DNA of 64,000 bases, from assembly GCA_021792635.1 (NCBI GenBank), contig JAJYUH010000002.1, positions 124,001 through 188,000 of the forward strand, written 5' to 3'. The translations under genes were made by a program, and so were the position numbers. Of the stretch, positions 60,253 to 63,564 are shown one piece after another. Source of the stretch: Natronospirales bacterium. Its GTDB lineage: Bacteria; Pseudomonadota; Gammaproteobacteria; Natronospirales; REEB76. The notes under the pieces were generated by a model. It worked only from the letters and a program-made list of their open reading frames with translations. It was not told the origin of the DNA and made no database searches. Numbering within the stretch: position 1 is the stretch's first letter; each line of letters starts with the position of its first letter.

Positions 60253-60281
60253 TTGACAATTTCCCGCCCCCGTGTTTTGCT
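60253..60281 (+). promoter_or_regulatory. Promoter driving the fluoride riboswitch transcript
   Basis: Consensus TTGACA (60253-60258), a 17-nt spacer and TTTGCT (60276-60281), preceded by TG in the extended -10 position. The -10 box is weak, but the start would fall about 10 bases before the aptamer, as expected for a riboswitch leader. Confidence 0.55.
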
Positions 60282-60296
60282 TAGTAACACAAGTAC

Positions 60297-60341
60297 GGCG
60301 ATGGAGTTCGCCCATAACCGCCCAGGGGGCTAATGACTCCT
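60297..60341 (+). promoter_or_regulatory. Fluoride riboswitch aptamer (crcB motif)
   Basis: The aptamer matches the fluoride riboswitch architecture. P1 is GGCG (60297-60300) / CGCC (60309-60312), with ATGGAGT in its loop; the stem GCCC (60320-60323) / GGGC (60327-60330) comes next; then the conserved TAATGACTCCTA (consensus has G at the third position). GGAGT (60303-60307) pairs with ACTCC (60336-60340) as the pseudoknot. Fluoride binding should stabilise this fold and turn expression on. It controls a hydrogenase-4-like operon rather than a fluoride exporter. Confidence 0.93.
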
Positions 60342-60370
60342 AACTGAACCGACATGAAGTTCAGAGGAGT
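60336..60370 (+). promoter_or_regulatory. Expression platform sequestering a ribosome-binding site
   Basis: ACTCCT (60336-60341) and CTGAAC (60344-60349) can pair with AGGAGT (60365-60370) and GTTCAG (60359-60364), with a two-base AA bulge. The right arm contains the Shine-Dalgarno AGGAG. ACTCC is shared with the aptamer pseudoknot, so the two folds exclude each other: without fluoride the site is hidden, with fluoride it is free. This is a translational ON switch read directly from base pairing. Confidence 0.75.
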
Positions 60371-60377
60371 TCTGTGC

Positions 60378-60485
60378 GTGGCATACTGCAAGGCATGCCC
60401 GGGTACTGCGTACCGCAGTTCCGGTAACCGACATCTAACACCACTCGGACCTGCCGTGCGGCGCCGCAGGTGCGTCCATGCTTAG
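60378..60485 (+). CDS. Possible 35-codon leader ORF overlapping hyfC
   Basis: GTG 60378 lies 8 bases after the switched AGGAG and opens a 35-codon frame ending with TAG at 60483-60485, which overlaps the hyfC ATG at 60478. The product (MAYCKACPGTAYRSSGN, then basic) matches nothing I know. An alternative GTG 60374, 4 bases after AGGAG, gives a 17-codon frame. The switched site is 109 bases from hyfC, and an in-frame stop (60436) bars direct extension, so leader translation with coupling to hyfC is the simplest reading. No expression evidence exists. Confidence 0.4.
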   Translation: MAYCKACPGTAYRSSGNRHLTPLGPAVRRRRCVHA

Positions 60486-61422
60486 GGATATCCTTGCCCA
60501 GGTCGCCCAGGTGCTGGCGGTGCTGCTGCTCGCGCCGCTCATCCAGGGATTCATCCTGCGTTACGAAGAGCGGGTACAGCGCGCCCGCGGACCTTCCATC
60601 CTGCAGCCCTATCGCGACCTGTGGAAATTGTTCCACAAGCAACTGGTCATTCCCGAAACCGCCTCCTGGGTGTTCTGGGCGGCGCCGGTTGTGGCCTTCA
60701 CGAGCATGCTTACCGTGCCGCTGCTGATCCCGGTGCTGACCAATTACCCGCTGCCGCTTTCCGACATGGGTGACATCCTCGGCGGCGGCCTGATCCTCAC
60801 GCTGGGCACGTTGTTCGTGAATCTGGCGGCACTGGACAGCGGCAGCGCCTACGGCGGCATCGGCTCCAGCCGCACGGTCATGCTTTCCATCCTTGCCGAG
60901 CCTACGCTCATCCTGGTGTTCGTGGGGATCACCCTGATGGCCCAGGCCATGCTGCCGTTCGTCGTCAATCACCTGCTCGTCGCCAGTCCGGCCGTGTACT
61001 GGAGCCCCACACACCTGTTTCTGGTGCTGGCGTTTTTCATCCTGCTGCTGGTGGAGACCGACAGGCTGCCGATCCACTCCAGCACCCACATCGAGGTGTA
61101 CATGATTGAGGAGGCCCGCATCCTCGAGTATTCCGGCCCGCTGCTCGGCCTGCTCAAGTGGGCCTCCATGATGAAGCAATTCATCCTGTACACCATCTTT
61201 TGCAATGTGCTGGTGATTCCCTGGGGCCTGTCGGTCCAAGGTACGGCCATCGGCATTCTGGCCGCCGCCGCAGTCCTGGTGCTCAAGTTCTTCCTGGTGG
61301 GTGCGGCCATGGTGGTGGTGGAAACCGTGCAATCGCGCCTGCGCTTCTACCGTTACCAGGAACCGCTGGCGGCCTCGTTCCTGCTGGCGATCCTCGCCAT
61401 CCTTGCCAACCAGATCAGGTGA
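60478..61422 (+). CDS. hyfC: Hydrogenase-4 / formate hydrogenlyase HyfC-like (NuoH-like) subunit
   Basis: Membrane subunit of 314 residues in the NuoH/HyfC family, which links the hydrogenase-type module to the proton-pumping arm. The run RARGPSILQPYRDLWKLFHK near residues 35-54 is the loop facing the quinone/hydrogenase interface, and IEEARILEYSGPLLGLLKWA near 206 the second conserved loop. Eight or so hydrophobic segments are present. Only GCAGG lies near ATG 60478; upstream extension is blocked by a stop at 60436. The gene is under the fluoride riboswitch. Confidence 0.9.
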   Translation: MLRDILAQVAQVLAVLLLAPLIQGFILRYEERVQRARGPSILQPYRDLWKLFHKQLVIPETASWVFWAAPVVAFTSMLTVPLLIPVLTNYPLPLSDMGDILGGGLILTLGTLFVNLAALDSGSAYGGIGSSRTVMLSILAEPTLILVFVGITLMAQAMLPFVVNHLLVASPAVYWSPTHLFLVLAFFILLLVETDRLPIHSSTHIEVYMIEEARILEYSGPLLGLLKWASMMKQFILYTIFCNVLVIPWGLSVQGTAIGILAAAAVLVLKFFLVGAAMVVVETVQSRLRFYRYQEPLAASFLLAILAILANQIR

Positions 61423-61425
61423 AGC

Positions 61426-62106
61426 ATGCTCGCCGCCCATCTTGATCCGTTGGCCGCCTCGCTTTTCAGCCTCATCGCCATCGCCAGCATGCTGCTGTCG
61501 TTCGTGATGCTGGGTTCGCGTTGGCTGAAGAACTATATGTACGCCTTTGGCATCCAGTCCTGGCTCATCGCCCTGCTGTCGGCGCTGGTCGGCTATTACG
61601 GGCATTACCCCGAGCTTTACCTGGTGGCGATTTTCACGCTCCTGTTCAGAGGTCTGCTCCTGCCGTATCTCGTGATGCGCATCCTGCAACGGCTGCATGT
61701 GGAACGGGAATTGCATCTCATCCTGCGTCCCTCCGCAAGCCTGGTGGCCGGCGCCGCGTGCGCGCTCTTCGCCTTGCTGGTGGCATCCCGGGTGAGCGCA
61801 GCCATCGGGCTGACACAAAACATCGTGGTGCTGGCGCTGATGGTGATGCTGACCATGAAACTGGTGGGTTTTCTGATGCTGAGCGTGCGGCATGAGGCGG
61901 TGAGCCAGATCCTCGGCCTGCTATTGCTGGAAAACGGCATATTCCTGGGTTCCCAGATACTCATTCCCGGCATGCCTTTGCTCATCGAACTGGTCATTCT
62001 GTTTGACCTGCTGGTGGCGGTGGCGTGTTTCGGTGTGCTGGTGCGTTACCTCATGACGCACGTCGGCAGCACCAGCAGTCTCGATCTCAAGCGACTGGTG
62101 GGCTAG
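61426..62106 (+). CDS. hyfE: HyfE-like membrane subunit
   Basis: Membrane protein of 226 residues like HyfE, which corresponds to a NuoK-like module with extra N-terminal helices. The NuoK-type segment EAVSQILGLLLLENGIFLGS lies near residues 152-171. The start is 3 bases after the hyfC stop, and hyfF begins 3 bases after its own stop. Confidence 0.88.
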   Translation: MLAAHLDPLAASLFSLIAIASMLLSFVMLGSRWLKNYMYAFGIQSWLIALLSALVGYYGHYPELYLVAIFTLLFRGLLLPYLVMRILQRLHVERELHLILRPSASLVAGAACALFALLVASRVSAAIGLTQNIVVLALMVMLTMKLVGFLMLSVRHEAVSQILGLLLLENGIFLGSQILIPGMPLLIELVILFDLLVAVACFGVLVRYLMTHVGSTSSLDLKRLVG

Positions 62107-62109
62107 CGC

Positions 62110-63564
62110 ATGACCTTCGAGCTGTGCGTGATTGTCATTGCACCACTGGTCGCCATCCTGGCGGCGGGCGTACCCCCGCGTCCGCGGGTAGTGGAGTATG
62201 TGAATCTGCTGGCCAGCCTGGCGGTACTCCTCGCTGCCTTGCCATTGCCTTTCCGCATCCGCACACCGCTGTTCTACTGGGGCGGTTACGTGATCGTAGA
62301 TCAGCTGGGGGCATGGGGGATTTTGTGCACGGCCGTGGTGTATTTTCTGGCCTCGATATACGCCATCGGTTACATGCGTCTGATGGATCGTCCCAAGCGG
62401 CTGGTGAATTTCTATGCGCTGTTTGCCGCCTTCGCCTGGACCATGCTGGTGGCACCGCTCATGAACAATCCCGGTGTGTTCTGGATCGCCATCGAACTCA
62501 CTACCCTGGTGAGCACCTTTCTGGTGGGTTTCGAACGCGAGGCGGAGAGCATGGAAGCGGCGTGGAAATACATTATTGTGGTCTCCGCCGGTATCAGTCT
62601 TGCGCTGCTCGGCACGGTGCTGCTGTATTGGGGCGGCAGTCTGGTGCTGGGACCTGCCTACGATATGACCTGGCAGGTGCTGCGGGACGTGGCACCGCGT
62701 ATGAACCCGGTGCTGCTCAAGCTGGGATTCCTGCTGGTGCTGGTCGGTTATGGCACCAAGGTCGGTCTGGCGCCCATGCATACCTGGTTGCCGGATGCGC
62801 ATAGCGAAGGTCCGGCACCGGTATCCGCCATGTTGTCCGGCGCGCTGCTCAATACCGCCATGCTCGGAATTGTGCGCTACCTGGCGGTGACGGATGCGGC
62901 CGGCATCGGTCTGCTGCCGCGTACCGCGCTGGTGGTGCTGGGCATCTTGTCGGTATTCGTGGGGGCGCTGTTCATTGTGCGTCAGGAGGGCGTCAAGCGC
63001 CTCATGGCTTATTCCAGCGTTGAGCACATGGGTATCCTGGCGCTTGGTTTCGGTTTCGGCGGCGTACTGGGCATCGCCGGCGCGCTCTATCACATGCTGA
63101 ATCATTCCCTCAACAAGTCGCTGATGTTTTTCGGCGCCGGCAATGTCATGCGCCGTTACGGCACCAAGGAAATGCCAGGCATACGCCGTGTACTGAGTGA
63201 ATTTCCCGTTTCGGGTCTGCTATGGCTCGCGGGAGCCGTCGCCATTACCGGTGCACCGCCCTTCGGCACGTTCCTGGGGGAGTTCAGCATCCTGCGGGCC
63301 GGGTTTGGCAGCCCCAATATCTGGGCGGCGCTCATCATGCTGGTGCTGCTCATCGTTATTTTCATCGGCTTTCTCAATCACTTCCGTGCCATGTACTTCG
63401 GCAGGAAGCCGGAAACGCTGCCCGCCGGGTGCTGGGGGGGGAGCTGGGGCGTGGCACCCATGTGGCTGGCACTGGTGCCGCTGCTGGTGCTGGGATTGTG
63501 GTGGCCGGAGCGCCTGCTGACTCTGTTCGCGGCGATCGCGCATGGATTGGGAGCAGCGTCATGA
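62110..63564 (+). CDS. hyfF: HyfF-like antiporter-type (NuoN/L/M) subunit
   Basis: A 484-residue proton-translocating subunit of the NuoL/M/N-MrpD superfamily. It contains the hallmark HTWLPDAHSEGPAPVSAMLSG near residue 224, the broken-helix Lys/His region YSSVEHMGILALGFGFGG near 302, and MLNHSLNKSLMFFGAGN near 330. It overlaps hyfG by four bases (ATGA). Confidence 0.92.
   Translation: MTFELCVIVIAPLVAILAAGVPPRPRVVEYVNLLASLAVLLAALPLPFRIRTPLFYWGGYVIVDQLGAWGILCTAVVYFLASIYAIGYMRLMDRPKRLVNFYALFAAFAWTMLVAPLMNNPGVFWIAIELTTLVSTFLVGFEREAESMEAAWKYIIVVSAGISLALLGTVLLYWGGSLVLGPAYDMTWQVLRDVAPRMNPVLLKLGFLLVLVGYGTKVGLAPMHTWLPDAHSEGPAPVSAMLSGALLNTAMLGIVRYLAVTDAAGIGLLPRTALVVLGILSVFVGALFIVRQEGVKRLMAYSSVEHMGILALGFGFGGVLGIAGALYHMLNHSLNKSLMFFGAGNVMRRYGTKEMPGIRRVLSEFPVSGLLWLAGAVAITGAPPFGTFLGEFSILRAGFGSPNIWAALIMLVLLIVIFIGFLNHFRAMYFGRKPETLPAGCWGGSWGVAPMWLALVPLLVLGLWWPERLLTLFAAIAHGLGAAS

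Follow-up and report, generated by a model that had tools for sequence, protein, structure and literature searches.

Which start codon does the fluoride riboswitch upstream of hyfC control, when the ribosome-binding site that it is predicted to free lies before a short leader frame? This question was addressed in a stretch of 64,000 nucleotides (the window) and in related and distant genomes. The reading preferred here, held with a probability of roughly 0.77 and resting on sequence analysis, is that a translational fluoride ON switch acts via a leader ORF that is coupled to the downstream operon.

Aptamer, promoter and competing pairings

The upstream part of the locus comprises the following features:

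60253-60281, + strand: candidate promoter, TTGACA (60253-60258), 17 nt, then the extended -10-like TGnTTTGCT (60273-60281)
60288-60349, + strand: fluoride riboswitch aptamer RF01734 (covariance model match)
60303-60307, + strand: GGAGT, 5' strand of the aptamer pseudoknot (sequence and RF01734 consensus)
60335-60371, + strand: sequestering hairpin GACTCCT-AA-CTGAAC / GTTCAG-AGGAGTT (fold of -14.4 kcal/mol, covariation)
60336-60341, + strand: ACTCCT, anti-Shine-Dalgarno, pairing with the aptamer GGAGT or with AGGAGT (sequence, folds)

The aptamer is the only fluoride aptamer within the window and was recovered by cmscan with 55.3 bits (E 1.3e-12; gathering score 34) and by a whole-genome RF01734 search with an E of 1.3e-14. 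It is directly adjoined by the element at 60253-60281, which was not picked up by a strict consensus promoter scan and, judging from its motifs, is likely a promoter; each of the nine genus loci that were aligned keeps a TTGAC(A/C/G) sequence ~36 nt 5' of the aptamer.

Complementarity for the pseudoknot was observed between ACTCC (60336-60340) and GGAGT (60303-60307), while the alternative partner of ACTCCT is AGGAGT at 60365-60370, in a hairpin lengthened by a second stem (CTGAAC 60344-60349 with GTTCAG 60359-60364). Of the two folds, which exclude each other, only one pairs the ribosome site, as in a translational ON riboswitch, and the competition for ACTCC(T) that the initial annotation had proposed was confirmed as complementarity to both partners. 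In the full leader without ligand, AGGAGT was predicted to be 96% paired (P(unpaired) 0.04) by folding programs, which are unable to model the pseudoknot exchange itself. ACTCCT was invariant across 16 loci. In the sequestering helix 84% of cells were paired, compared with 36-55% when the helix was slid, and covariation reached 0.183 versus 0.110 in shuffled alignments, the inner stem being only roughly aligned. The anti-Shine-Dalgarno stem was predicted at nearly all of the curated loci described below (L158 folds differently and L223 forms two stems). An intrinsic terminator as the expression platform was ruled out, as none was found between the aptamer and hyfC.

A leader ORF as the probable target of the switched ribosome site

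Downstream of the competing pairings, the following features were identified:

60363-60369, + strand: leader Shine-Dalgarno AGAGGAG (sequence; predicted accessibility)
60378-60485, + strand: leader ORF, GTG start, 35 codons, TAG stop (ORF list; kept in relatives)
60436-60438, + strand: TAA in the hyfC frame (sequence)
60449-60472, + strand: hairpin ACCTGC/GCAGGT inside the leader ORF, covering the weak hyfC Shine-Dalgarno AGGTG (60468-60472)
60478-61422, + strand: hyfC-like membrane subunit, 314 aa (PF00146 NADHdh, Pfam E 8.4e-31)

The switched site is located 108 nt from hyfC, and its sole well-spaced start is the leader GTG at 60378, separated from AGGAG (60365-60369) by 8 nt. The leader frame is +1 relative to hyfC, and its stop codon TAG (60483-60485) forms an 8-nt overlap with the hyfC ATG at 60478, with the sequence ATGCTTAG. 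As in a ppe2-type uORF (see below), the switched ribosome site serves a short frame that is out of frame with the main gene. Since TAA 60436-60438 lies in the hyfC frame, no extended HyfC can arise from the freed site, and such a product was ruled out by this stop and by the frame. Two further starts were rejected: GTG 60374 (17 codons) is only 4 nt from the ribosome site and is missing in the nearest relative, L010, and ATG 60354, in the leader frame, is without a Shine-Dalgarno, lies in the hairpin loop and is not kept in L005, L006 or L009. The initial annotation had placed the freed site 8 bases before GTG 60378 and not before hyfC, had held that an in-frame stop bars hyfC from starting there and had described a 35-codon frame ending across the hyfC start; the sequence agrees on each count.

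The hairpin within the leader ORF has a predicted local fold of -12.5 kcal/mol (60448-60482), a value for this one locus, and CAGGT (60467-60471) has a predicted P(unpaired) of ~0.43 in the full leader.

These elements suggest the following sequence of events. Without fluoride, base pairing of ACTCCT and CTGAAC with GTTCAG-AGGAGT would shut the leader ribosome site; when fluoride is present, the pseudoknot would hold ACTCC, leaving the site free for initiation at GTG 60378. Ribosomes would then read the 35 leader codons, opening the stem over the weak hyfC site AGGTG, and terminate at the TAG. As the leader ends across the hyfC start, a terminating ribosome could re-initiate there or open the start for another ribosome. 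The role of the leader would lie in being translated and not in its peptide. We infer a fluoride response, leader translation and a need of hyfC for that translation, together with the alternatives of re-initiation and unmasking, from the arrangement of these elements.

Conservation within the genus

A search for RF01734 covered 19 genomes of the window's order and gave matches in ten, all from the window's own family. Nine loci with the AGAGGAGT platform were comparable; the next gene is hyfC in six of these (L001, L010, L004, L005, L006 and L009) and crcB, which encodes a fluoride exporter, in three (L011, L012 and L013). In all nine, a leader frame 30-38 codons long begins from the switched site, 12-13 nt downstream of the first base of AGGAGT, and stops 4-13 nt within the next gene. 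The place of the window's GTG 60378 is taken by ATG in seven of the nine loci; because relatives have ATG at this position and keep the overlap, the coincidence of stop and start is above chance. Conservation of the leader frame and its overlap had been named beforehand as a check, and both were kept throughout the nine genus loci and recur in distant bacteria.

Most genus leaders were shown to share the N-terminus MAYRKAC or MACRK, with the remainder of the peptides unrelated. Substitutions at the first, second and third codon positions numbered 8, 8 and 9 between L012 and L013 and 9, 3 and 5 between L001 and L010; this spread over codon positions suggests that the peptide is not the product. 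By sequence comparison, start, frame and stop of the leader are conserved, unlike the peptide. No positional codon constraint of the kind associated with a peptide-sensing (attenuator) leader was detected among these unrelated peptides.

Other arrangements of the locus were also observed. In a related genome (G008), the same platform lies directly before crcB without a leader (L007). At L008 and L014, from the same genus, a leader-like frame stops ~18 nt before crcB; in L008 this frame, 28 nt past the aptamer's ACTCCT, starts with ACG where L014 has ATG.

Recurrence in other bacteria

Scanning the GTDB genome collection for a sequence pattern and searching sampled genomes of the window's class, Alphaproteobacteria and Thermoleophilia with RF01734 yielded 229 distinct aptamers. 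The sample is non-random and its sorting was rough and automatic, so that the following class counts are not natural frequencies: 75 aptamers were of the terminator type, their stem being followed by a T-run, 54 lacked a complementary ribosome site, 40 had a short frame located at the switched site (some being Firmicutes terminator cases), 30 looked direct, 25 had a ribosome site but lacked a start and 5 lay at contig edges. Most of the wide pattern matches belonged to Firmicutes terminator types, which were set aside, and pattern searches in Hyphomicrobiales and Bradyrhizobium added few loci.

Leaders before hyfC were identified at alphaproteobacterial loci with the overlaps ATGA (L053, L119 and L238) and GTGA (L124), and at L055, where the leader TAA lies 3 nt 5' of the main start. 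An unclassified bacterium (L077) carries ATGCTTAG before hyfC, the same sequence as the window. Leaders also precede an antiporter-like gene in Bradyrhizobium (L084, ATGA) and in a Thermoleophilia genome (L042, TGATG), both genes being called by sequence reading and not by Pfam, and the layout occurs before other genes at L178, L199, L240, L246 and L033. The leaders outside the genus have no sequence in common, and no Pfam family match was obtained for the leader peptides. The initial annotation had regarded a leader relay under a fluoride switch as an unusual design; this view did not hold, as the layout recurs among translational fluoride switches.

Two variants of the layout were noted. The related gammaproteobacterial hyfC loci L158 and L159 have, at their switched site, the frame GTG TCT GTG TGA, which lies 14 nt 5' of the hyfC ATG; this three-codon frame is perhaps a minimal leader. 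At L040:317-1306, the freed site begins a ~49-codon in-frame N-terminal extension of a phosphoesterase-like start (MKIAVMSDLHLEF), which reads in sequence as if a leader had been fused to the gene.

Position of the leader stop and alternative explanations

The position of the leader stop was compared with a null model in which the leader region of 27 curated loci was shuffled and its length varied by 0-2, success being a first stop no further than 14 nt inside or 5 nt short of the main start. For this partly hand-picked list, in which main starts are predictions, the stop fell at the main start in 22 of the 27 loci versus 4.35 expected (P ~7e-15); the other five have no overlap inside the range used. 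Outside the genus, 13 of 17 loci were successes, two of the 17 (L053 and L238) having been added by eye outside the automatic rule, versus 2.64 expected (P ~5e-9), and this figure is preferable because loci within one genus are non-independent. Four loci (L091, L267, L076 and L112) were left out for unclear main starts or terminator-like tails; counting them as misses gives 13 of 21 versus ~3 expected, as a rough estimate. All 22 coupled loci have a leader frame free of stops up to within 3 nt of the main start, compared with 8/22 and 14/22 for the other two frames. The leader stop is, as in a ppe2-type uORF, conserved in overlapping or abutting the main start. That the switch acts on a leader ORF coupled to hyfC, as first proposed, is supported by a frame and an overlap far above chance, from which we infer that the leader drives hyfC.

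The best-surviving alternative is that fluoride frees the upstream site but exerts its true effect on transcription, the leader frame being a by-product: its ribosomes would shield the nascent RNA from Rho, and the switch would act by polarity, with the exact stop position unimportant. As no intrinsic terminator was found after the switch, a Rho-dependent step is possible, and the ~100 nt left untranslated without fluoride would be long enough to expose RNA. However, polarity alone gives no account of why, in 22 of 27 loci, the leader ends just a few bases from the main start, and several leaders have just 12-25 codons; this explanation is considered unlikely.

Less probable again is that hyfC uses its own site and the leader is idle, the hairpin being a general accessibility switch or a remnant from a neighbouring gene's switch. 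AGGTG (60468-60472) is a plausible weak site that could allow an independent start, which is a point against coupling, and direct arrangements do exist, both at L007, where crcB is served by the same platform, and among the 30 direct-looking aptamers of the sample. In the window, however, the switched site is far from hyfC and offers only the leader as a well-spaced start, and a remnant would not be expected to retain, across nine genus loci and ahead of two different genes, an open frame with a precise stop. That the leader encodes a merely co-regulated small protein with a function in the fluoride response is the least probable reading and is unsupported: the similar N-termini in most genus loci follow conserved DNA at the ribosome site, whereas substitutions are evenly spread, C-terminal halves are unrelated and leaders elsewhere share neither sequence nor a Pfam family.

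The downstream operon

The leader ORF, if coupled to hyfC, would open an operon that continues in the window with two further features:

61426-62106, + strand: hyfE-like membrane subunit, 226 aa (ORF; named from its position)
62110-63564, + strand: hyfF-like antiporter-type subunit, 484 aa (PF00361, Pfam E 2.8e-52)

A Pfam search with the hyfE-like ORF returned no match at 1e-3. The gene order is hyfC, hyfE-like, hyfF-like, 49-kDa-like, 20-kDa-like, a second antiporter-type subunit, crcB, DUF190 and MFS, with crcB (L017:7854-8228) in the same gene run as hyfC. Given that crcB (fluoride channel), the DUF190 gene and the MFS transporter gene lie on the same strand 3' of the hyf-like genes (L017:7854-9922), the switch at 60288 may govern the export of fluoride via a long operon, whose gene content fits a fluoride-response operon.

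CxxC motifs were searched for in the 49-kDa-like large subunit (L017:3562-5049; contig C19, 187561-189048) and in the second-cluster ORF L017:13293-15017, and none was found in either, so the nickel ligands are absent. The operon's large subunit lacks the CxxC nickel ligands of a [NiFe] hydrogenase or formate hydrogenlyase, and the complexes, as judged from their sequences, are hydrogenase-related (Ehr-like) and not formate hydrogenlyase, despite the 'hyf' names.

Relation to known systems

The sole known riboswitch-to-uORF coupling is that of Mycobacterium tuberculosis ppe2, where a B12 OFF riboswitch hides the ribosome site that serves uPPE2, a short uORF out of frame with ppe2 (Kipkorir et al. 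2024, PMC11260477). This uORF ends in an AUGA overlap, and mutants and western blots showed that ppe2 needs its translation via termination-reinitiation (PMC11260477). It is the exact parallel in function, although ligand and sign (OFF versus ON) differ: in both systems the switched ribosome site belongs to a short uORF overlapping the main start and not to the main gene. ppe2, however, has a B12 aptamer, is an OFF switch of one bacterial lineage and is bench-tested, whereas the present system has a fluoride aptamer, is predicted to be ON and occurs in several phyla before different genes, as judged by sequence comparison.

Direct translational fluoride switches (RF01734, crcB motif; L007 and L148) have the same aptamer and the same ACTCCT/AGGAGT exchange freeing a Shine-Dalgarno, but their freed site lies immediately before the main gene, whereas that of the window serves the leader ORF. 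An association of fluoride riboswitches with formate-hydrogenlyase genes, the same kind of downstream genes as in the window, has been published (Baker et al. 2012, as cited in PMC11139923); the citing passage in PMC11139923 gives the gene association but not a leader ORF. Short upstream ORFs delivering ribosomes to the next gene, the role proposed for the leader here, are covered in a 2025 review of translational coupling (PMC12548453), in which the word riboswitch has 0 occurrences. Text searches, with most subscription papers including Baker et al. 2012 outside their scope, did not turn up any account of a leader frame controlled by a fluoride switch; within the literature covered, riboswitch-uORF coupling in a fluoride ON form, and its recurrence, seem not to have been described.

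A broader proposition, to which we give slightly better than even odds, is that fluoride-switched, sequence-free leader ORFs delivering ribosomes have evolved repeatedly in several phyla, before hyfC, crcB, antiporter and other genes, and form a general platform class of coupling-uORF riboswitches, hidden so far because annotation omits the leader. If so, many translational fluoride switches would act directly on an unannotated frame, and gene assignments and main-start reporters would therefore miss the mechanism. The single known relay, ppe2, would gain a wide natural comparison set, with which to ask why a leader stands between sensor and operon; it might provide one aptamer platform for interchangeable genes, or uncouple the folding of the aptamer from the coding sequence.

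Genomes with several fluoride switches

The alphaproteobacterial MAGs G384, G387, G388, G389 and G390 (genomes of L053, L055, L119, L124 and L091) each encode 5 to 12 fluoride riboswitches, several of them located 5' of hyf-like genes, enolase and other targets, which suggests a large fluoride regulon.

The genome of the window carries a second fluoride riboswitch (L002; contig C19, 202211-202270, - strand), with a counterpart in a relative (L016). Its platform is different and long (222 nt to the gene), and it precedes a convergent paralogous hyf-like cluster with a hyfC paralog. A 61-codon GTG frame at L002 and L016 overlaps the main start by 23 nt and is kept in both species.
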